Positions 11,849 to 32,283 of a stretch of 33,171 nt of DNA are shown here, piece by piece (position 1 is the first letter of the stretch; each line of letters opens with the position of its first letter). The stretch comes from Alphaproteobacteria bacterium (GTDB lineage Bacteria > Pseudomonadota > Alphaproteobacteria > Rhodospirillales > Rhodospirillaceae), in the NCBI GenBank assembly GCA_015233585.1, contig JADFXL010000011.1, positions 1-33,171 on the forward strand, read 5' to 3'. The notes beneath the pieces are model-generated. The model saw nothing but the letters and a program-made list of their open reading frames with translations, was not told the origin of the DNA and did no database searches. A program made the translations under genes and the position numbers.

Positions 11849-13549
11849 TCAATCTCTGCGGGGTTTTGCTTGTGTGGCAACACTAGCAATCAGATCCAGT
11901 TTTTCGCGTATTTCCGTGGCGATGACAGTCACGGGCACATATGGAGCCAGTGTATGGTAGTCGGTTTTACGCATAAGGTTGGGAAGACCGATTTTTTCGT
12001 AGAATTTCTTGAACAAAGGATCGAGGAAGTCGTCACTTGCCTTGATGTCGTCTCCCCATGGAGAAGGTTTGCTGAGTGCCGCCAGAGCCTTCGTAATTTC
12101 TTCAATGCTTTCCTCCATCCTGGCACGCCAAGAGCCAGCCCCTAGCTCTCCAAGTTCCTCGCGTCCACTGTTTTCAGCAAACGCAAAGAGTGTGTCCTGG
12201 TCACATAGGTAGTTCTCCAGTTCTCGCCGCTTCCACATGTGATGTTGAAGCTGCGGATCACTCGAAGGTTGCTGATCGAGTCGATCATAGATGGCAAGCC
12301 CAACGAGATCCTGTTTTGCCTCCCGCAGACCATAAAAATGATCTCGCGCTTTTTGAGGTTGATTGGCCACATAATGTACGAAAGGCCTCTCCAGGTGACC
12401 CTTGGCCGGGTGATCAAGCCGCCGGGCAAAAGCGAGCAAAATGGCAAGATCCGTTGACCCTTCCAGGTACAATATCCATCCGACCTCTTCCGCCTGGTAG
12501 TAGTGCTCAAAACCTATTTCCTTAAGCGCCTTGATAACTTGACTTCCACGGTTCTCTATCCGATGGGGGCGTCCAACAAAAGCGATCACGACATCGCGGT
12601 CGGCAGCCTCGTTGAGGATAACTTCCGAATGGCTCGCCGCGATAATCTGACTATGTGTCTCTCTGGCGGTGTCTGTCAGAATTTGGTACATCTGTCGTTG
12701 TCTCAAAATTTCAAGATGAGCATCTGGTTCATCTAGAAGTAACGTAGCCCCAGGATTGGATATCATGTGCGCAAGTAGAAGCATCGTCTGTTGTTGACCT
12801 CGTCCGCTGGACGATATATCAAGTCGTATTTTGTTCCTGGTTTGAAAACTCATTTCAATTTCGCCGCGTTCCTTGATATATGAAGGTCTATTCAATTCTA
12901 TCCCGAATAATGAATCGATTTGTTCATTAAGACGATTCCATTTTTCTTTTCCGCCATCACTCTCTACGACCAGGTAACATAAATTGCGGAGAACCTCAGC
13001 GGTTCGGCCCTCACCAAGACGAACACTGATCGCGCCTTTGTCCAGCATGGTTTCATTGGCGGCAAGGCCTGACATGGGCGGCAGATAGGCGATGGATTGT
13101 AAGGCGGCTTCTTGCGGCACTTCCATCCGGCCCCCTTCAGGCAAGCGAAGAGGTCGACAATAAAACGACTCTTCATTGGCGTAATAAAATTCCAGGCCGC
13201 AAGTCCACAATTTACCCCGAGTTATACCTTCGACGATCACATCGATAAAAATATTCCGGGATTGGCCCGATTCCGCAGTATGCAGATCGCGCCAAAGAAG
13301 CTTGGCCGCTGGAACCGGAACGGTGATCAAATCACGCCTGTTGATCGTTACGCCTGGGCGCTTTTCCGGAACATTGCCCGTGCCACGCTTTTCAACCCAT
13401 CGCCGGACGCCTATCTGCCACAAAGCCAGTGCCTGCAAGGCGGACGTCTTGCCGGCATTGTTTGGGCCGATAAGGACAACCCGTTCCCCAAGGTCGAGAT
13501 CCACCTCTGAAAACAGTTTGAAATTACGGATCGTTAGTTTGGTCAGCAC
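11849..13549 (-). CDS. OLD-like AAA ATPase with C-terminal TOPRIM-type domain
   Basis: 566 residues. The N-terminal ABC-type AAA ATPase shows LTKLTIRNFKLFSEVDLDLG, Walker A GPNNAGKTS, signature-like SSSGRGQQQ, Walker B TLLLDEPDAHLE and H-loop ASHS. The C-terminal part has YLEGSTDLAILLAFA, LAIYDRLD and WKRRELENYL, resembling the acidic TOPRIM core and the DUF4435/OLD tail. OLD-type proteins are ATP-dependent nucleases, many with anti-phage roles (P2 OLD, Gabija GajA, PARIS); activity here is inference. I chose GTG 13549 because GGAG precedes it by 6 bases and the protein then begins like other family members; ATG 13576 is in frame. It overlaps otsB by 7 bases, so it is coupled to it. It is AT-richer than the flanking genes. 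No partner such as a UvrD-like helicase is adjacent. Confidence 0.78.
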   Translation of the reverse strand: MLTKLTIRNFKLFSEVDLDLGERVVLIGPNNAGKTSALQALALWQIGVRRWVEKRGTGNVPEKRPGVTINRRDLITVPVPAAKLLWRDLHTAESGQSRNIFIDVIVEGITRGKLWTCGLEFYYANEESFYCRPLRLPEGGRMEVPQEAALQSIAYLPPMSGLAANETMLDKGAISVRLGEGRTAEVLRNLCYLVVESDGGKEKWNRLNEQIDSLFGIELNRPSYIKERGEIEMSFQTRNKIRLDISSSGRGQQQTMLLLAHMISNPGATLLLDEPDAHLEILRQRQMYQILTDTARETHSQIIAASHSEVILNEAADRDVVIAFVGRPHRIENRGSQVIKALKEIGFEHYYQAEEVGWILYLEGSTDLAILLAFARRLDHPAKGHLERPFVHYVANQPQKARDHFYGLREAKQDLVGLAIYDRLDQQPSSDPQLQHHMWKRRELENYLCDQDTLFAFAENSGREELGELGAGSWRARMEESIEEITKALAALSKPSPWGDDIKASDDFLDPLFKKFYEKIGLPNLMRKTDYHTLAPYVPVTVIATEIREKLDLIASVATQAKPRRD

Positions 13550-14376
13550 GATCGTCTCCAGCCTGATAAGGTCCACCGCCGCAACAACTCGATCACCTGC
13601 CCGGGATCATCGACCCGATAATCGGCAGTGGTCAACCGATCCTCGTCAGGCGGCGCGACGATGATGCCGATACCATGGCCCCGGATCGTGCGAAACGCGG
13701 GTTCGTCGTTGGCATCGTCGCCAAAAAACAGCGGCACGATCGATTTGGCTTCCAGTCCCTGGCCCTGTGCTGCGAGCAGCCAGGTTATCGCCTTGCCTTT
13801 GTGCCAGTCGATGGCGGGCAGGATCTCGTAGACCATCTTGCCTTCCGTCACCGTCATTTGCGGCTCTTCGGCCAGGCACGCAGTGACAATATCGCGCACC
13901 GCCGCCCGCGCCGGTTCCGTTGGGACGCGGCGGGTGTGGACGGCGAGGGCGCAGGCCTTGCGCTCCATCTGGCTCTCGGGAAAGGCGGCCAGTCCCTGAC
14001 GCAATCGGGTTTCCAGGCGATCCAACGGTGCCAGGAAGTCTCCGCATCCGTTGAAGACGCAGCCGCCGGGCATCGCGATGTCGAAACCATGGCTGCCGGC
14101 GTAACTCACGCCATCAATGGCGACGAGTCGTTCTAAAACGGCGCGGTCGCGTCCGCTGACTACGGCGACGCTCGCTGATCGCACCAGACGGGTGAGCACC
14201 GCGCGCGCCGATTCGGACAGCCGTCCCAATTCGGGCCGGGGAGGAATTGGCGTGAGGGTGCCATCGAAATCAAGGAAGAAGGCTATCCGCCGATCGCCGA
14301 TGCCTGCCGCGAGCCGGTCGTATCGCGTCAGGGCATGGGGCAGGTCGCGGGCAGGCCGGAGGGGGCTAGAAGGCAT
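13543..14376 (-). CDS. otsB: Trehalose-6-phosphate phosphatase
   Basis: 277-residue HAD-superfamily enzyme that dephosphorylates trehalose-6-phosphate to trehalose. Motif I is FFLDFDGTLTPI, motif II VAVVSGRDR, YAGSHGFDI is the OtsB signature, K in DWHKGKAI is motif III and FFGDDANDEPAF is motif IV. I chose ATG 14376 because it overlaps the transglycosylase stop by 11 bases (14366-14376) and gives a normal N-terminus; a longer frame to 14508 exists inside the upstream gene. No trehalose-6-phosphate synthase (otsA) is in the window, although the two are usually paired; it may lie elsewhere. Confidence 0.92.
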   Translation of the reverse strand: MPSSPLRPARDLPHALTRYDRLAAGIGDRRIAFFLDFDGTLTPIPPRPELGRLSESARAVLTRLVRSASVAVVSGRDRAVLERLVAIDGVSYAGSHGFDIAMPGGCVFNGCGDFLAPLDRLETRLRQGLAAFPESQMERKACALAVHTRRVPTEPARAAVRDIVTACLAEEPQMTVTEGKMVYEILPAIDWHKGKAITWLLAAQGQGLEAKSIVPLFFGDDANDEPAFRTIRGHGIGIIVAPPDEDRLTTADYRVDDPGQVIELLRRWTLSGWRRSC

Positions 14377-21166: not shown

Positions 21167-21778
21167 TCAATGTAACTGGATCACGATTTTTGGAGGCTGG
21201 CGGTTTGTGCTGTTGATTTGCCAGAAATAGGTCTGGAATGGGCCGTTCTGTTCGATGCGGCCAGCGTTGTGTTTGAGTACGGTGGCGCCCGTCACCACCC
21301 GGAACGAACCCTCCATATTCAGGCCAAGTTCGCGAACTTCTCCGCCTTCGTTTTTTGGCATACTGGTACCGGCAATCTTTACGGTGCCGTCCTTACTCGA
21401 AGTCATAGTGATAAGCACCGCGTTGCGACGGATGAAAGTCACCATTTCAGTTTCTTTCAGGCGTCCAAAGCGCTCATAACGAACGCGGAATTGCCCGCTG
21501 CCCAGGGACGTAATTTCCTTGAAGTTCTCATCGCGGCGCAAATCCTTCTCGATTTCCGCCACTTTCTTTCGGGCTTCCCCAGGGGGAAGTTTGTTGCGTT
21601 TAATGTCGGCGAGCAGTGGAACCCAGGTAAGTATCCCCTGATAGGTAATTGCGTACGTCCCATTGCCGCCAAGGCGGATTTCTGCAACGAACTGATCAGG
21701 AAGATAGCAGCCAGCGAGCAACGGCAAGAAAAGAACCAGCAACACAAATCGAGCTGCCCCCACCCGGATGGCCCTCAT
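21167..21778 (-). CDS. Predicted lipoprotein, unknown function
   Basis: 203 residues starting MRAIRVGAARFVLLVLFLPL with lipobox LAGC (lipidated Cys near residue 24). The mature part is beta-rich (FVAEIRLGGNGTYAITYQG, FRVRYERFGRLKETEMVTF, NAVLITMTSSKDGTVKI) and ends with TNRQPPKIVIQLH. I do not recognise the family. ATG 21778 lies 2 bases after the mazG stop, so it is coupled to mazG. Likely anchored in the envelope. Confidence 0.75.
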   Translation of the reverse strand: MRAIRVGAARFVLLVLFLPLLAGCYLPDQFVAEIRLGGNGTYAITYQGILTWVPLLADIKRNKLPPGEARKKVAEIEKDLRRDENFKEITSLGSGQFRVRYERFGRLKETEMVTFIRRNAVLITMTSSKDGTVKIAGTSMPKNEGGEVRELGLNMEGSFRVVTGATVLKHNAGRIEQNGPFQTYFWQINSTNRQPPKIVIQLH

Positions 21779-21780
21779 GG

Positions 21781-22593
21781 TCACGCCTCCCGTTCCCCGA
21801 TTTTGACTCGTGCCCACAGGGCTTCCAGTTCCTCCGGCGTTGCCTGATTGGGGGAGCGGTCCACCTCGGCCAGCAGCGACTCAACTTGGCGAAAGCGGCG
21901 TTCGAACTTGGCGTTGGCATGACGCAACGCCGTCTCGGGGTCGATCTTCAGTTTACGAGCCAGATTGACACATGAGAACAAAAGATCTCCCATTTCGTCG
22001 GTAAGCCGTTCCGCCCCGGAACCACCGGCGATTTCTGCGCGCAATTCTTTGGCTTCCTCCGCGATCTTATCAAGAACCGGCGCTGCCGCTGGCCAGTCGA
22101 ACCCAACCCTGGCCGCGCGCGCCCCCAGTTTGTGAGATCGGGTGAGGGCGGGGAGGGCGGTTGCGATTCCATCCAGGGCACTGGGCCGAGCCGCCTCGGC
22201 TCCTCCCGCTGCCTGTGATGAGCGCTCAGCCTCCTTGATGCCTTCCCAGGCCCGTAATTGCGCATCGGAATCGGCGATCACTTCGTCACCGAAAACATGA
22301 GGATGGCGCCGCACCAGCTTCTCGGAAATGGCAGAGACGACATCGGCAAACGCGAACAGTCCGTCTTCGCGGGCGATTTGGGCATGAAACACAACCTGAA
22401 GCAAAAGATCACCCAATTCTTCTATTAGCAGGGCTGTGTTGCCGCGCTCAATGGCATCGACCACTTCATAAGCTTCCTCAATGGTATGAGGAGCGATGGA
22501 GGCGAAAGTCTGCTCCACATCCCACGGGCAGCCTCCAACAGGATTGCGCAGTTGCGCCATGATTTCCAGCAGTCGTTCGATATTCGTTGTCAC
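21781..22593 (-). CDS. mazG: Nucleoside triphosphate pyrophosphohydrolase MazG
   Basis: 270 residues, two MazG domains. The first has LRNPVGGCPWDVEQTF, EEAYEVVDAI and EELGDLLLQVVFHA, supplying the EExxE and ExxD metal ligands. The second has FDWPAAAPVLDKIAEEAKEL and DEMGDLLFSCVNLARKL. It hydrolyses (d)NTPs to monophosphate and PPi, cleansing nucleotide pools and affecting (p)ppGpp. I chose GTG 22593 because GGAG precedes it at 8 bases and it gives the usual short N-terminus; ATG 22626 is in frame. The dif-like site lies 110 bases upstream. Confidence 0.93.
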   Translation of the reverse strand: MTTNIERLLEIMAQLRNPVGGCPWDVEQTFASIAPHTIEEAYEVVDAIERGNTALLIEELGDLLLQVVFHAQIAREDGLFAFADVVSAISEKLVRRHPHVFGDEVIADSDAQLRAWEGIKEAERSSQAAGGAEAARPSALDGIATALPALTRSHKLGARAARVGFDWPAAAPVLDKIAEEAKELRAEIAGGSGAERLTDEMGDLLFSCVNLARKLKIDPETALRHANAKFERRFRQVESLLAEVDRSPNQATPEELEALWARVKIGEREA

Positions 22594-22703
22594 TACGGAT
22601 ACTCCAAGGGCCGAAAAAATCTTCATTCATTGGCCGGTTCAGTTCAAGGCGCGAATTAAAATGGCGGAAAGCCTCAAGAAGGCCGAGAACAGGAGATAAA
22701 CAA

Positions 22704-22731
22704 ATGTCGCATAATGTATATTATGAATAGG
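22704..22731. other. dif-like XerCD recombination site
   Basis: The inner 17 bases GCATAATGTATATTATG (22709-22725) are identical to the core of E. coli dif: the inner XerC half GCATAA, spacer TGTATA and inner XerD half TTATG. The outer bases differ (ATGTC on the left, AATAGG on the right, where E. coli has TTAAAT). It is located in an intergenic region between mazG and the MBL gene. To its right all nine genes point towards it. XerCD at dif resolves chromosome dimers at the terminus. The identification rests on the core match, so a genomic-island attachment site remains possible. Confidence 0.75.
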
Positions 22732-22757: not shown

Positions 22758-23528
22758 TCATACCTGGATTTTCATGCCATCGAACGCGGGTTCGACGCCC
22801 TCGGGCAATCGAGTCCGCAGCGTTTCGTAATCGAGACCCGGTCCCATGTGCGTAAGTACGGCACGACGTGGTTTCAAGCGTTCGATCCAGGCAAGAACCT
22901 TGTCGACGTGGGCATGGGTTGGATGCTCCTTGTCGGTAAAGCACCCGATGATCCATACCGAGATACCCTCAAGCACTGCGAAGGCTTCTTCCGGCAACGT
23001 CACCACGTCGGTCGAATACGCCACCGGGCCAAAGCGGAATCCCATCGACGGGATATAGCCGTGATCCTGCTCAAACGGTATTACATCAATCCCGTTGACA
23101 GAAAACGGCCCGGTAATTTCGCGTGCCGTCAACCACGGCCGGTAAAATGGATATTTTTCCGACATATCGAGCGGCTCGAACGCATAGGGAAAACGGCGGT
23201 TGATAGTCTGAAGAACCTGTGGCGCGGCATAGACATCAATGGGGCCACCCATAGTCCGGTTTATTTCCCGCAAGTCGTCAAGACCATGAACGTGATCGGC
23301 ATGGGCATGGGTGTAGAGGACGGCATCAATGCGTCGCTCTCCGCATTGAATGAGCTGTTCCCGCAAATCCGGTGCCGTATCAACCAGGATACGGCAGTCG
23401 TCTTGCCCAACGAGGATCGACGGCCGAAGGCGCCGGTTCTTTGGGTTCGTGGGATCGCATCCCCCCCAGCCTCGGCTAATCATGGGCACGCCACCGGCAC
23501 CACCGCAACCGAGTATGGTGATCCTCAT
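22758..23528 (-). CDS. MBL-fold metal-dependent hydrolase (PhnP-like)
   Basis: 256 residues. N-terminal MRITILGCGGAGGVPMISR, then the metal motif THAHADHVHGLDD (His74, His76, Asp78, His79), DHG near residue 155 and a terminal THMGPGLDYE. The style is that of PhnP/RNase Z-like phosphodiesterases (cyclic phosphates), and it is routinely found after tatD in alphaproteobacteria. The substrate is unknown. Its ATG overlaps the tatD stop (ATGA). It ends 26 bases from the dif-like site. Confidence 0.87.
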   Translation of the reverse strand: MRITILGCGGAGGVPMISRGWGGCDPTNPKNRRLRPSILVGQDDCRILVDTAPDLREQLIQCGERRIDAVLYTHAHADHVHGLDDLREINRTMGGPIDVYAAPQVLQTINRRFPYAFEPLDMSEKYPFYRPWLTAREITGPFSVNGIDVIPFEQDHGYIPSMGFRFGPVAYSTDVVTLPEEAFAVLEGISVWIIGCFTDKEHPTHAHVDKVLAWIERLKPRRAVLTHMGPGLDYETLRTRLPEGVEPAFDGMKIQV

Positions 23529-24331: not shown

Positions 24332-25905
24332 CGGCCCCCTTGCGCGCCCTCATCGCCCTCTCCCACCGCTTCCACATAGCGCGGAAAGATACCCTGCGGC
24401 TTCGGAAGCGGCTGGTCGGGACGCAGCGCGTAATCGGAACTCACACAAGTAAAGTCCCGCGCCGTTGCCGCAATGGCCAACTGATCGAGCATCTTTGACG
24501 CCGAGTCCGGTACGAACGGCTGCATCAGCAAGCCCAGCACGCGAATGGTCTCGGCCAGCACATACAGGACCGTTTCCATCCGTGGCGGATCGTTTTTCTT
24601 GAGCGCCCACGGCGCCTGACGGTCCACATAGCCATTGGCGGCACGCACAACGCTCCAGATCGTCTCCAGCGCCTCATGAAACACCTGCCGATCCATCAGC
24701 CAGCGAATCCTGGGCAACAGATCATATGCGGCCTGCATCAAAGCCCTGTCGTCGTCGAGAAACGATCCCGGCTGGGGTAAGCGGCCGGCACAATTCTTGT
24801 CGATCATGGACAGAACACGCTGGGCAAGATTGCCCAGGTCGTTGGCCAGTTCACCGTTGACCCGATTGACCATGGCCCGGTGAGAATAATCGCCATCGTT
24901 GCCGAACGGCACTTCGCGCATCAGAAAATAACGCACCGGGTCAAGGCCATAGCGGGCGATCAAGGCCAGGGGGTCAATGACGTTTCCCACCGACTTGGAA
25001 ATCTTCTCGCCCTCATTGGTCCACCAGCCATGAGCATATACCCGCTTGGGCGGCTCCAGCCCGGCGGCCATGAGGAACGCGGGCCAGAACACCGCATGGA
25101 ACCGCACAATATCCTTGCCCACCATGTGAAGATCAGCCGGCCAATGGCTGGCATAAGCGCCACTTTGATCCGGGTAACCAACGGCGGTGATGTAGTTAGT
25201 CAGCGCGTCCAGCCAGACGTACATTATATGTTCGCTGTCGCCGGGCACCGGCACGCCCCATTTGAAGGTGGTGCGCGAGACGGAAAGATCCTGCAATCCG
25301 CTTTTTACGAAACTCATGACCTCGTTACGGCGGCTGTCGGGGGCAATGAAGTCCGGGCGGGTTTCATAAAGCCGCAACAGCGGTTCCTGCCAGGCCGACA
25401 GTCGGAAAAAGTAACTGGGTTCCTCGACCCATTCCACCGGCGCCCCCGTCGGAGCCAGTCGTTGCCCCCCCTGCCCTATCACCAGCTCGCTTTCGGCATA
25501 GAAGGCTTCGTCCCGCACGGCGTACCAGCCCTTATAGCCGCCGAGATAAATCTGGTCGCGCTGGACCAGTTCCTGCCACAACGCCTGGCAGGATCGCGTA
25601 TGGCGGCTCTCCGTGGTGCGGATAAAGTCGTCATTGGAAAAATTCATCGCCCGCGCCAGATCGCGAAAATTCTGCGATACCTGATCGGTGAATACCTGCG
25701 GCGGAAGGCCCGCGACGGCGGCCGATTTTTCCACCTTTTGTCCGTGCTCGTCGGTGCCGGTGAGGAATTTCACATCATAGCCGTCAAGGCGCTTGAATCG
25801 GGCCAGAACGTCACAGGCCAGCGTCGTATAGGCGTGGCCGATGTGGGGACGGTCATTGACGTAATAAATTGGTGTCGTGATGTAAAACGGTGTGCGTCCT
25901 GTCAT
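24328..25905 (-). CDS. metG: Methionyl-tRNA synthetase
   Basis: 525 residues. Class I signature: FYITTPIYYVNDRPHIGHAY (HIGH motif) at the start and GEKISKSVGNVIDP (KMSKS-type KISKS). WLDALTNYI and HMVGKDIVRFHAVFWPAFLM are typical MetRS. No C-terminal OB-fold appendix, as in the alphaproteobacterial short form. It charges tRNA-Met. I chose ATG 25905 with AAGGAG 4-9 bases upstream. A 16-bp direct repeat (25909-25924 and 25929-25944) duplicates this ribosome-binding sequence. It lies 37 bases after holB. Confidence 0.96.
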   Translation of the reverse strand: MTGRTPFYITTPIYYVNDRPHIGHAYTTLACDVLARFKRLDGYDVKFLTGTDEHGQKVEKSAAVAGLPPQVFTDQVSQNFRDLARAMNFSNDDFIRTTESRHTRSCQALWQELVQRDQIYLGGYKGWYAVRDEAFYAESELVIGQGGQRLAPTGAPVEWVEEPSYFFRLSAWQEPLLRLYETRPDFIAPDSRRNEVMSFVKSGLQDLSVSRTTFKWGVPVPGDSEHIMYVWLDALTNYITAVGYPDQSGAYASHWPADLHMVGKDIVRFHAVFWPAFLMAAGLEPPKRVYAHGWWTNEGEKISKSVGNVIDPLALIARYGLDPVRYFLMREVPFGNDGDYSHRAMVNRVNGELANDLGNLAQRVLSMIDKNCAGRLPQPGSFLDDDRALMQAAYDLLPRIRWLMDRQVFHEALETIWSVVRAANGYVDRQAPWALKKNDPPRMETVLYVLAETIRVLGLLMQPFVPDSASKMLDQLAIAATARDFTCVSSDYALRPDQPLPKPQGIFPRYVEAVGEGDEGAQGGR

Positions 25906-25942
25906 GGCAGGCTCCTTCCTGGTCGCAGAGGCTCCTTCCTGG

Positions 25943-27013
25943 TCATTGGCGAACCTGCTTTTCCACCGCCAGGAAGGCACCCAGCATCACCTGCCGGGGA
26001 TCAAGGTTCACGGCATCGGCTCTTACAAACAAACGTGTGATCTTTTCCCACACCTCAACCCATTGATCAAGGCTGCATCCACGAGCCAGACGATCGGCGA
26101 GACCCCCCTCCCCCATCACGACCTCCGGCTCCGGGATACCGCAGGCGCCACCGCGAATCACCCGGGCCAGCCACCAGACCAGCAATTCCGCCGCCGCGTC
26201 ATAGGCCGAATCGGTCTTGGCCACCCGGTCGATAAAGGCGTGGAGCGCCACGGCATCCATACGCGGCAATCCCGAAAGCAGTCCGATCATATCCCGGTAC
26301 AAGGTCAAGCCGCCACTGTCGGCCAATGCCAGAACCCGCCCCAGGCTGCCCTCACCCAGCCGGGCCAGTGCCGACGCATCCACGGACGACAGTTCGGGGC
26401 GCCATTCGCGCAATCGGGCTTCCACCAGATCCACAGCCAAAGGCCGCAGCATCAAAGCCCGACAGCGGGACCGCAAGGTCGGCAGCAAACCACCTGGACT
26501 GTGGCTGACCAACAGCAGCAGCGCACGGCGCGGCGGTTCCTCAAGAACCTTCAACAAAGCATTGGCCGCGTTCCGATTCATTTCGTCGGCGGTATCGACG
26601 ATAACCACCCGCCATCCGCCCCCGGCCGGCGTCAGCGACAGGAAGGCGCCGATCTCGCGCACATCCTTGACCAAGATCTCCGTGCGGCGTTTGCTGGGTT
26701 TTTCATCGGACCATCCGCGCTCGACGACTTTCAGATCGGCATGAGTACCGCTGGCGACGTGTCGAAAAATCGGATGATCGGGCGCCATGTGCAGAGTGTC
26801 GGTTACAGGCCCAAACAGGCCGCCGCTGCCCTCCCCTCCCCCCAGCACGAAGCGTGCGAAACGATAGGCCAGCGTCGCCTTGCCGATACCGCGAGGCCCT
26901 CCGATCAGCCACGCATGAGCCAGCCGCCCGGATCGCCAGCCATCCAGCAAACGTTGCTCCGCCTCCTCATGACCCAGGAGGTCCTGGGTATCGCGTGGGG
27001 TTAGGGCTTCCAT
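25943..27013 (-). CDS. holB: DNA polymerase III delta' subunit
   Basis: 356 residues. P-loop GGPRGIGKATLAYRFARFV, Walker B-like VVIVDTADEMNRNAANALLKVLEEPP, sensor SHSPGGLLPTLRSRC; the DnaX-like ATPase fold of the clamp loader, which with delta and tau/gamma loads the beta clamp. The Walker A has GKAT, and LEEPP plus SRC are family hallmarks. It begins at ATG 27013. The multi-hairpin element and tmk lie upstream. Confidence 0.92.
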   Translation of the reverse strand: MEALTPRDTQDLLGHEEAEQRLLDGWRSGRLAHAWLIGGPRGIGKATLAYRFARFVLGGGEGSGGLFGPVTDTLHMAPDHPIFRHVASGTHADLKVVERGWSDEKPSKRRTEILVKDVREIGAFLSLTPAGGGWRVVIVDTADEMNRNAANALLKVLEEPPRRALLLLVSHSPGGLLPTLRSRCRALMLRPLAVDLVEARLREWRPELSSVDASALARLGEGSLGRVLALADSGGLTLYRDMIGLLSGLPRMDAVALHAFIDRVAKTDSAYDAAAELLVWWLARVIRGGACGIPEPEVVMGEGGLADRLARGCSLDQWVEVWEKITRLFVRADAVNLDPRQVMLGAFLAVEKQVRQ

Positions 27014-27044
27014 GGCTTTGGTCCGGGAACATACGGGGCGTTAT

Positions 27045-27155
27045 CGGGCTGCCGCCCGAACCCGCCTGGGGCGATGCCCCAGTCCCCCTTATTATTTATT
27101 AAACGAAAATGGGGTCTGGGGCATCGCCCCAGGCGGGGCCGGGGCGGCAGCCCCG
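27045..27155. repeat. Intergenic multi-hairpin element (copy 3, most symmetrical)
   Basis: h1 27045-27058 (CGGGC / GCCCG), h2 27066-27082 (CTGGGGC / GCCCCAG), central stem CCCC 27084-27087 with GGGG 27111-27114 around an AT loop, h3 27116-27132 (CTGGGGC / GCCCCAG), h4 27140-27155 (CGGGGC / GCCCCG). The element is itself a long imperfect inverted repeat. It lies between the tmk stop and the holB start, interrupting an otherwise tight gene row. Confidence 0.85.
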
Positions 27156-27161
27156 CAGGGA

Positions 27162-27824
27162 TCACGAACATATCACCCCAAGCCTCTGCTCCACCGCCGC
27201 AAGCACGCTTCTATGGACCAGCCCGATATCGCCAACGGCATCGATCACGGCGCAACGCTCTTGCTCACGGGCAGCGATTTCCAGAAACCCGGCTCCAAGC
27301 CGACGATGAAAATCAGCTCCCATCCGTTCATAACGATCTTCGTTCCCGTTGCGGACGCCGGCCCGATTCAGACCGATTTCGACGGGAATATCGAGAATGA
27401 TCGTCAGATCCGGCGAAAAATCCCCAATAGCCACGGCACGAAGCTGCTCCAGCCTGGAGCGTTCCAGTCCATGGCCATACCCTTGATAAGCCATCGTGGA
27501 ATCCACAAAGCGATCGGACACCACCCACTTTCCCGCCTCCAGTGCGGGCCAAACGGTTTGGAGCAGGTGGTCCCGGCGCGCCGCAAAATGGAGCAATGCC
27601 TCGGTCATGGCATCCCACCGCGCCACATCGCCTTCGACAAGAAGGCTGCGTATTTGTTCGGCACCGGGAGAACCACCCGGTTCACGGGTCAGAACCGCAT
27701 CGACCCCTACCTGCCGCAAAGCCTCGACCAGAAGCCGTGCCTGGGTTGATTTTCCGGCGCCATCGGCCCCTTCGAAGGTTACGAACCGGCCGCGTTTATC
27801 CTTATGGGCATCATTGAGCGCCAT
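27162..27824 (-). CDS. tmk: Thymidylate kinase
   Basis: 220 residues. P-loop FEGADGAGKSTQARLL, DR motif REPGGSPGAEQIR, VVSDRFVDSTMAYQGYG and the LID RYERM. It phosphorylates dTMP to dTDP. The start ATG 27824 overlaps the dacA stop by one base (TGATG). Codons further upstream lie within dacA in another frame and were rejected. Confidence 0.95.
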   Translation of the reverse strand: MALNDAHKDKRGRFVTFEGADGAGKSTQARLLVEALRQVGVDAVLTREPGGSPGAEQIRSLLVEGDVARWDAMTEALLHFAARRDHLLQTVWPALEAGKWVVSDRFVDSTMAYQGYGHGLERSRLEQLRAVAIGDFSPDLTIILDIPVEIGLNRAGVRNGNEDRYERMGADFHRRLGAGFLEIAAREQERCAVIDAVGDIGLVHRSVLAAVEQRLGVICS

Positions 27825-28984
27825 CAATGGGCGGAGCCTGTGACCATGCGTTTGGCTGCGGCACCAATGCGGCCGACAAAGCCGAGCCTCGCTATATCCT
27901 CCCCCGCTTCCAGCGGCAGTTCCATGGCCGGCATGTCGGGGGCAGAAATAACCAGGGTCGCGATGCGGTCCCCTTTTCGGATTGGGGCGGGTATTGGCGA
28001 GTTGAAGATGGCGGAAACCTTGATGTTCTTGCTGGTGCGGCGCGGCAAGGTCATCTTGACGGTATTCTTCACCACGAGCGGTACCACCGGCATGACGCCC
28101 AGCCATACGTCGGCAGTCGTCACGATCTCGTTGGCGTCGAACAGTTTTTTGTCTTCAAATTCGCGGAACGCCCAGTCTATGAGACGTTCCGATTCCTGAG
28201 CGCGTTCCTTCATGGTCTCCATGCCATTCAAGACCATGATCACCCGGCGCCCGTCCCGTACCGCCGAAGCGGTCAGGCTGTAGCCCCCAACTTCCGTATG
28301 CCCTGTCTTCAAACCGTCGGCGCCAAGATTTGTGTGGTACAGCAAAGGATTGCGATTCCCTTGTTTTATCCCGTTATAGGTAAAATCCATTTCCTTGAAG
28401 ATCGGGTAGTATTGGGGAAAGTCGGACATGATACGCTTCGCCAAGATCACGAGATCCCTGGCCGTCATTTGATGTTCTGGATTCGGCCAGCCGGTCGCGT
28501 TCTTGAAGGTGCTGTTTTTCAGCCCGATCTTTGGTGCTTTCTTTGTCATCTCAGCGGCGAACTCATCCTCGGACGGAGCCAGATTTTCGGCCACCACGAC
28601 ACAGGCATCGTTACCAGAATCGACCAGAATGCCCCGCAAAAGATCCTCGACCTTGACCCGACTGCCAATCTGCACGAACATTTTGGAGCCGCCCATCCGC
28701 CACGCCCGTTCGCTGACCGCGAATTGATCCGTCAGCGACACGCTGCCTTCCTTCAGGCGTTCAAACAGCATGTACACGGTCATCAGCTTGCTCATGGACG
28801 AAGGCGCCATCAACTGATCGGCGTTTTTCTCCAAAAGCACGGTATCCGTATCAAAATCGACAATCATCGCCTGTTTAGCTACCGTATCCATGGCCCGCAC
28901 TGGTAACGCTGACACCAGCACCAGCACCAGCACCATCGCGCGTGTAACGCCCGCGAATGCAGTGCCAAAACGCGGAAACAGCAT
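27824..28984 (-). CDS. D-alanyl-D-alanine carboxypeptidase (S11 family)
   Basis: 386 residues. The signal segment MLFPRFGTAFAGVTRAMVLV continues hydrophobic to SALPVRA. SxxK is SMSK (63-66), SGN is SGND at 123-125 and KTG is KTGHT at 226-228, the three penicillin-binding motifs. It removes terminal D-Ala from pentapeptide; a C-terminal DacA-type domain follows. I chose ATG 28984 after AAGGTG. The tmk ATG overlaps its stop. DacA, DacC and DacF cannot be told apart. Confidence 0.9.
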   Translation of the reverse strand: MLFPRFGTAFAGVTRAMVLVLVLVSALPVRAMDTVAKQAMIVDFDTDTVLLEKNADQLMAPSSMSKLMTVYMLFERLKEGSVSLTDQFAVSERAWRMGGSKMFVQIGSRVKVEDLLRGILVDSGNDACVVVAENLAPSEDEFAAEMTKKAPKIGLKNSTFKNATGWPNPEHQMTARDLVILAKRIMSDFPQYYPIFKEMDFTYNGIKQGNRNPLLYHTNLGADGLKTGHTEVGGYSLTASAVRDGRRVIMVLNGMETMKERAQESERLIDWAFREFEDKKLFDANEIVTTADVWLGVMPVVPLVVKNTVKMTLPRRTSKNIKVSAIFNSPIPAPIRKGDRIATLVISAPDMPAMELPLEAGEDIARLGFVGRIGAAAKRMVTGSAH

Positions 28985-29067
28985 ATGATTCACCTTGTAA
29001 TTTCTGGAACTTACAACAAACTTGGCGCCCGGGAAGGGCCGGGTTGGCTGGCATGGCACAACCCTGG

Positions 29068-30069
29068 TCAATTAACAACCACCAAGCGTGCATCCGGGAA
29101 GCCCGAACCTTTTACCTTATCTAACAAAACCTGGGGGTTCTTCCCGTTTTTTAACGGTCCGAGCCAGACGCGATAGACAATTTTTTTGCCTGATTGCTGC
29201 TCCAGAACTTTGGCTGGGGCAAGGTCTTTCAGCCGCCCCGCCAGACGAACGGCATTGCTTCGGTTGACGAAGGAGGCCGCCATGACGAACGTGCCAGCTT
29301 TTCCAGTTACCGCCGGTTTCTCAGATGCTGCTGCTTTCGGTTGCGTCACCCCTGTTCTGGTGGCATGAATTTTTTCGCTCCCCTTGGTTGACGACTCCAC
29401 TGCCGCCGGAGGGTGACGTGGCTTTGTCATCCTGGGATGGGGCAAGGTCTCGCCGGAAACCGGCAGGGGAGGCAGGGACTCGCTGGCGACGGTAATGCGG
29501 GGAACCGAGGAAATCTTTGGTGCCAGCGTGACGGAGTTGCGCAACAACTGGTTCTTGAGCGCCATGCTTTCATCCGCAAGAATTTCCAGGCGCACGAGCG
29601 TGGTGCCGCCCCCCTCAAAGCCAAGCATTTGTGCCGAGCGGCGCGACAGGTCGATGACCCGGTCGTTGGCAAAGGGGCCACGGTCGTTAACCCGCACGAC
29701 CAGAGCGCGGCCATTGCTCACATTGGTCACCCGCACGACGGAAGGCAGCGGCAAGGTGCGATGCGCGGCGGTCAGCGAGTTCATGTCAAAGATCTCACCG
29801 TTGGCGGTGGCTTTGCCGTGAAAGTCCTTGCCATACCAGGAGGCGACTCCGGTCTCGTTATAAGCGTAATCCTCGTGGGGATAATACCAGACCCCATTGA
29901 TTTGATAGGGTTCCCCGATCTTGTAGGTGCCGGTGGATGGCACGGAAGTGGAATAGTCAACCGTTGTCTGACTCGTCTCTTGGGTTTGTACGCGTTCACT
30001 GGCGCAGGCATTTGGCAAAAGACACGCCAAACCCAGCGCAATCATGCGGTGCACGGGCTTGTTTCGCAT
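29068..30069 (-). CDS. rlpA: RlpA-family septal lytic transglycosylase
   Basis: 333 residues. The leader MRNKPVHRMIALGLACLLPN ends in a lipobox-like PNAC. The double-psi beta-barrel spans GVASWYGKDFHGKATANGE, AAHRTLPLPSVVRVTN and RVNDRGPFANDRVIDLS (Asp/His catalytic positions). A Pro/Lys/Ser linker leads to a C-terminal SPOR domain (from FVMAASFVNRSNAVRL to the end) that binds denuded glycan at the septum. RlpA cleaves stem-peptide-free glycans. It lies between dacA and mltB; the three envelope hydrolases probably share a transcript. Confidence 0.92.
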   Translation of the reverse strand: MRNKPVHRMIALGLACLLPNACASERVQTQETSQTTVDYSTSVPSTGTYKIGEPYQINGVWYYPHEDYAYNETGVASWYGKDFHGKATANGEIFDMNSLTAAHRTLPLPSVVRVTNVSNGRALVVRVNDRGPFANDRVIDLSRRSAQMLGFEGGGTTLVRLEILADESMALKNQLLRNSVTLAPKISSVPRITVASESLPPLPVSGETLPHPRMTKPRHPPAAVESSTKGSEKIHATRTGVTQPKAAASEKPAVTGKAGTFVMAASFVNRSNAVRLAGRLKDLAPAKVLEQQSGKKIVYRVWLGPLKNGKNPQVLLDKVKGSGFPDARLVVVN

Positions 30070-30113
30070 GGGCTGGTACTATGGCTCCCCCTGATCAACG
30101 ATATATGGCAATT

Positions 30114-31100
30114 CTACTTGCGGCCCAGGGAATCTGCAAGATGTCCTGCCGCCAGCGCAAAAAGATTGGATTGATTCCACTTGCGAAGAACATCGAAGTT
30201 ATCCGAAACTAGAAAGGCGCGTCCTCCCCGTCCTTCGGGCAGAACCAGGGCAGCACGGGCCGTGGATTTTGGCAAGGGATGGGATTTCGAGGCCCGAATC
30301 CCCAACGCCGACCACTCGTCCAGGCTCTTGCGAATGCTCAGATCCGCCAGGGCCGTGTTGAATCCCTTGGGCAGACGCACGGCCCTGCCCCACGATTGCC
30401 CGGCATCCCACCCGGATTTGGCGAGGAAATTGGCCGTGGAGGCGAACACATCGGCTTCACTGCGCCAGATATCGCGCCGGCCGGTACCCTCGAAATCCTC
30501 GGCAAATTTCAGGAAGCTCGACGGCATGAACTGACACTGGCCCATGGCTCCCGCCCAGGATCCGGTCATTCTCTCCGGGGTAATGTCGCCATGATCAAGA
30601 ATTGTCAGGGCATTGAAGAGTTCCTTGCGGAAATAGGCGCTGCGCCGGCCGTCATAGGCCAGCGTTACCAGAGCGGGAATGATTGGAAATCCTCCCGTGA
30701 CATGACCATAGTCGCTCTCCATGCCCCACAATGCGACGATGAAGCGGGCCGGAACGCCGTATTTCGCGGCGATGGTGGCAAGGACGGTCTGATGTTTGGC
30801 CATTTTCACCCGGCCATTGGTGATACGGGCCTTGGAAACCACATGCCGCATGTAGGAGGAATAGGTAAGCTTGAACTCCGGTTGGTGGCGATCGAGTTCA
30901 ATCACGCGGGGCAACAATTCCACCGAGCCCAGCGTCTTGTCCAGGATCGGCGCGCGAATCCCCTTCCCCGCCGCTTCGCTCCGCAGATCCCGAAGCCACT
31001 CCGCAAACGGCTGCTGCGCACCTGCGGCCACCGTTGGCAGGGTCAACGCGAGCGTCGTGGCGATCATCACGATCATAGCCCGGCATTGCCTGAAGATCAT
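30114..31100 (-). CDS. MltB-like lytic murein transglycosylase
   Basis: 328 residues. A signal sequence (IVMIATTLALTLPTVAAGAQ) precedes an MltB-type domain: FIVALWGMESDYG with the catalytic Glu, RKELFNALTIL, GSWAGAMGQCQFMPSSF and IWRSEADVFASTANFLA. It cleaves MurNAc-GlcNAc with 1,6-anhydro product formation. MltB orthologues are shared across the alphaproteobacteria in this cluster. ATG 31100 is used; ATG near 31076 is possible. A C-terminal peptidoglycan-binding domain is absent. Confidence 0.9.
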   Translation of the reverse strand: MIFRQCRAMIVMIATTLALTLPTVAAGAQQPFAEWLRDLRSEAAGKGIRAPILDKTLGSVELLPRVIELDRHQPEFKLTYSSYMRHVVSKARITNGRVKMAKHQTVLATIAAKYGVPARFIVALWGMESDYGHVTGGFPIIPALVTLAYDGRRSAYFRKELFNALTILDHGDITPERMTGSWAGAMGQCQFMPSSFLKFAEDFEGTGRRDIWRSEADVFASTANFLAKSGWDAGQSWGRAVRLPKGFNTALADLSIRKSLDEWSALGIRASKSHPLPKSTARAALVLPEGRGGRAFLVSDNFDVLRKWNQSNLFALAAGHLADSLGRK

Positions 31101-32193: not shown

Positions 32194-32283
32194 GGATGGG
32201 TGGCCGAGCGGTTTAAGGCACCGGTCTTGAAAACCGGCGAAGGTGTAAGCTTTCCGTGGGTTCGAATCCCACCCCATCCGCCA
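32194..32283 (+). tRNA. tRNA-Ser (anticodon UGA)
   Basis: 90 bases including CCA. Acceptor GGATGGG / CCCATCC with discriminator G, D arm GCCGAGC(GG)TTTAAGGC, anticodon arm CCGGTCTTGAAAACCGG with anticodon TGA, a long class II variable arm (GAAGGTGTAAGCTTTCCG) and T arm GTGGGTTCGAATCCCAC. CCA is encoded at 32281-32283. It reads UCA/UCG-type serine codons. Confidence 0.97.

Follow-up and report, generated by a model that had tools for sequence, protein, structure and literature searches.

A probable chromosomal dif site marking the replication terminus of a Rhodospirillales alphaproteobacterium, with an unusual pattern of arm conservation

Published catalogues include hundreds of dif sites (PMC2731167; PMC3025954). 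The E. coli dif reference sequence, GGTGCGCATAATGTATATTATGTTAAAT, was taken from Table 1 of PMC2731167, and GGGNAGGG was used as the E. coli KOPS consensus. According to Carnoy and Roten (2009; PMC2731167), conservation is stronger in the XerD arm than in the XerC arm. The same paper gives the Magnetospirillum dif as CGTCGCCATAATATACATTATGCGACAA, in the opposite orientation to the site described here, with TTATGCGACAA as the XerD arm. KOPS polarity at dif in alphaproteobacteria was reported earlier for Azorhizobium (PMC2443382), and also for several other alphaproteobacterial replicons (PMC13342612). The window of this study is the whole stretch of 33,171 nucleotides that was analysed, and it belongs to a draft assembly of 3.33 Mb in 435 contigs that is 80% complete. 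The host is a family-level relative of Novispirillum, Caenispirillum, and Rhodospira. On the basis of its sequence, its single copy in the assembly, and its conservation in relatives, the 28-bp site ATGTCGCATAATGTATATTATGAATAGG at 22704–22731 on the plus strand is almost certainly the ordinary chromosomal dif of this Rhodospirillales alphaproteobacterium, at which dimers would be resolved via XerCD and FtsK. The 28-mer represents a known kind of element.

The site has the layout of the proteobacterial dif consensus, which spans 28 bp as two 11-mer arms around a 6-bp centre, and its right outer arm deviates in the same way as in its family. The left arm, ATGTCGCATAA (22704–22714), is followed by the central hexamer TGTATA (22715–22720) and the right arm, TTATGAATAGG (22721–22731), all on the plus strand. 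On the E. coli-like reading, the left arm would be the XerC arm and the right arm the XerD arm, and the hexamer is presumed from E. coli to be the region of strand exchange. The original prediction had claimed that a 17-base core is identical to that of E. coli dif while the right outer arm departs from TTAAAT. Both statements hold: the core GCATAATGTATATTATG is exact at 22709–22725 on the plus strand, and the right outer arm reads AATAGG. The identity extends over 18 consecutive bases (22708–22725), and the overall match to E. coli dif is 19 of 28 bases. The gap in which the site lies is A+T-rich and the core is near-palindromic, so that a chance likeness of an intergenic A+T-rich stretch was considered. 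However, none of 100 dinucleotide-preserving shuffles of the window contained a match to the core, even when three mismatches were allowed. The site is also where conservation, synteny, skew, and KOPS polarity coincide, and the probability of a chance likeness is negligible.

The exact 28-mer occurs once in the 80%-complete assembly, which answers the question posed with the prediction of whether copies are single or scattered. At up to three mismatches, the search otherwise gave only the same site read in reverse and two sites that each differ at three positions. Among 61 genomes, the own one and 60 relatives, the core was found with at most one mismatch in 47, and in 45 of these as a single copy. 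A control with the reversed pattern gave no match across the 61 genomes. The 14 relatives lacking the core at one mismatch were searched again at three mismatches; some carry clear variants (GCATAATTAATATTATG, GCATAATGAAAATTATG, GCATAAGATATATTATG), and the rest gave background-level matches only, or none. Three genomes of the same family (G009, G011, and G027; L050, L051, L052, L059, L060, L061) match the core only at the background level and may have a diverged dif, or none. Two of the three are only 1.3–1.4 Mb. Two dif-like half-matching sites, GCATAATGAAAATTATG and GCATAATGTTTCATATG, lie about 30 bases apart on contig 1 near 340 kb in each of G021 and G035 (L048, L049, L057, L058). These are both genomes of one genus, and the paired sites are possibly a variant or duplicated dif.

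As predicted, the site is intergenic, located in a 131-bp gap between the start of mazG at 22626 and an MBL-fold hydrolase gene at 22758. Its left neighbour, mazG (21781–22626, minus strand), matched Pfam MazG with an E value of 1.4e-38, and its right neighbour (22758–23528, minus strand) matched Lactamase_B_2 with an E value of 2.9e-38. The nine genes to the right, expected to run towards the site, are indeed all on the minus strand. They are the MBL-fold gene, tatD, metG, a holB-like gene, tmk, a D-Ala-D-Ala carboxypeptidase gene, an rlpA-like gene, an SLT_2/mltB-like gene, and DUF218. Past the last of them, the right end of the window carries a tRNA-Ser (tga) at 32194–32283. The order suhB-like, lipoprotein, mazG, dif, MBL-fold, tatD, metG, holB, D-Ala-D-Ala carboxypeptidase, rlpA-like, and mltB-like is preserved in most of 20 relatives. 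With the site oriented, 18 of the 20 carry the right-hand block on the same side of it, and 14 have mazG to the left of dif at no more than 20 kb. A search of 20 kb around dif in G013 did not reveal the right-hand block. In G005, dif is inverted relative to its neighbouring genes.

Phages and islands are known to use dif, and terminus regions gather foreign genes. The original prediction had offered a Xer-using island as an alternative, in which the 28-mer would be the dif-like attachment site of an integrated element (IMEX) rather than the host dif. An AAA_15/AAA_21 ATPase gene (11849–13576), about 10 kb to the left of dif, has a lower G+C of about 0.52 against 0.58 and is possibly a horizontally acquired defence-type gene, which would suit an element of this kind. 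In contrast, no second dif-like copy within two mismatches was found in the 80%-complete assembly. The flanking genes are core genes whose order is shared with relatives, which makes the flanks core terminus DNA and not an island. Foreign DNA beside or between dif-like sites was thus not seen. The site is also conserved across families of the order, a pattern that an island would not produce. The island alternative is contradicted by these results, and an attachment site is very improbable.

The position of the terminus was examined by GC skew. The skew in the window is +0.034 to the left of the site and –0.035 to the right, and the switch is significant (p about 0.001, permutation of 500-bp blocks). 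The cumulative skew has its maximum at 21285, 1.4 kb from dif, compared with a median of 7.3 kb reported for proteobacteria (PMC2731167). Two relatives have chromosomes assembled almost as a single contig, with dnaA beginning at base 182 or 309. There dif is found 48% (G060) and 46% (G026) of the way along the sequence, and the sampled skew reverses its sign at dif. Hence the proposed check, a site at the skew switch, came out positive locally in the window of the site itself, and whole-chromosome sampling agrees in the two relatives, where dif is 46–48% of the way round from dnaA. However, the skew near dif is noisy in G030 of the same family. Since GC skew alone is too noisy in some relatives, KOPS polarity was taken as the sharper test.

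In the window, 16 of 17 GGGNAGGG octamers point towards dif, 10:0 on the left and 6:1 on the right (Fisher p 0.0006). The ten KOPS-like octamers on the left are on the plus strand within 2016–22157, with first bases at 2016, 3414, 6709, 6903, 7530, 11757, 16383, 19138, 20180, and 22150. The six on the right are on the minus strand within 25469–30968, at 25469, 26106, 26829, 26834, 30383, and 30961, and the single octamer facing the opposite way is at 29031, also to the right of dif. When up to 20 kb on each side of dif was taken from 20 relatives, 278 octamers pointed towards dif and 28 away. As an unbiased control, every one-wildcard octamer was ranked by its polarity towards dif over 21 loci, and GGGNAGGG ranked first with 293:29. 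Related G-rich controls were much less polar (129:49 for GGGANGGG and 221:156 for GGGNCGGG). For 18 of 21 genomes, dif falls inside the best KOPS switch interval, often to within about 1 kb. In the relative with the inverted dif (G005; L131, L132), the KOPS-like motifs still converge on the flipped site. Therefore, the orientation of the site is free relative to gene order. The skew switch, the convergent KOPS-like motifs, and the conserved terminus gene order at the site bear out the claim that the replication terminus is inside the window.

The genome encodes the machinery expected at a dif site. XerD was found with 334.9 bits, above the curated cut-off, and an FtsK_gamma domain with an E value of 1.7e-26. 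The best XerC match, an XerC-like recombinase, has 311 bits, just below the strict curated cut-off of 335, although this model passes in only 2 of 14 control genomes. By analogy with E. coli, homologous recombination would leave the sister chromosomes as one dimer. Septal FtsK would then be loaded and steered by the GGGNAGGG motifs converging on dif, join the two dif copies, and activate XerCD. Strand exchange by XerCD around TGTATA would finally restore two monomers. Binding and activation of XerCD and the resolution of dimers at this site are inferred from E. coli biology.

The two arms of the site differ in their conservation. Among 23 sites of the same family, the left outer positions 2–5 are invariant (TGTC) and the left 11-mer is nearly invariant, while positions 23–28 in the outer half of the right arm are variable, with an NATAG form being common. 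The information content is 9.4 bits for the left outer arm against 3.6 bits for the right. The outer positions were absent from the search pattern, and therefore the contrast is not a product of how the sites were found. The right arm comes closer to the usual GAAAAT in 17 sites belonging to other families of the order. The right arm of our site, unlike that of E. coli, is the family norm and not a defect. The NATAG arm was also considered as unique to this family, an idea rejected because many Desulfobulbales-type genomes share this arm combination. In Desulfobulbales-type Desulfobacterota (L143, L145, L157, L161, and others), the exact combination GTCGCATAATNTATATTATGNATAG was observed, which is also common in this alphaproteobacterial family. 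Its presence in both groups may reflect shared ancestry or convergence of the arms.

Under the E. coli-like reading, the better conserved arm in this family is the left one, opposite to the published XerD-arm rule. Therefore, either the rule fails here or the arms are reversed. In the latter case, XerD would bind the conserved arm (minus strand TTATGCGACAT) and XerC the variable arm. The excess of information in the left outer arm points in this direction, as do the reverse orientation in which the Magnetospirillum dif is published and the TTATGCGAAAT given for Xanthomonas (PMC2731167). In contrast, the right arm in other families of the order is often TTATGGAAAAT, a near match to the usual XerD arm, and the site is oriented there in the same way with respect to its neighbouring genes. 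On the E. coli-like reading, the base that varies in the centre is the second, in line with the published description (PMC2731167). Moreover, the flipped site of G005 indicates that the orientation is not rigid. In short, the rule of Carnoy and Roten implies that the arms are reversed, whereas homology with the other families implies that they are not. We regard functionally reversed arms as unlikely, though they deserve to be kept in mind. A wider proposal is slightly more doubtful still. It holds that this Rhodospirillales family departs from the proteobacterial rule by an inversion of the roles of the XerC and XerD arms at dif, or of the constraint acting on these roles, with one outer arm (TTGTC) frozen and the presumed XerD arm drifting in its outer half. 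If true, such an inversion would mean an altered division of labour between XerC and XerD. The unusual two-arm conservation pattern is the only point of wider interest.

As an ordinary dif, the 28-bp site pins the replication terminus of the draft genome and orients its contig. Across the Rhodospirillales, the terminus is marked both by the core of E. coli dif and by the KOPS consensus of E. coli, which agrees with the published alphaproteobacterial cases. Compared with E. coli K-12 dif, the site shares the 17-base core plus one further base leftward, and it is likewise intergenic, single-copy, near the terminus, and approached by convergent KOPS. The outer arms differ: at the left end the site has ATGT where E. 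coli has GGTG, and at the right end AATAGG where E. coli has TTAAAT. The dif of Magnetospirillum magneticum AMB-1 (PMC2731167) has the arm TTGTCGCATAA / TTATGCGACAA in common with our site and is likewise intergenic and near the skew maximum. However, the published listing has it the other way round, and its second outer arm reads CGTCGC where our site has CCTATT. The dif sites of the Novispirillum, Caenispirillum, and Rhodospira relatives have the same core class, the NATAG outer right arm, and the same right-hand block (MBL-tatD-metG-holB). Among these sites, the first base, the second base of the centre, and the last bases vary, and mazG is at differing distances or was not found within 20 kb.
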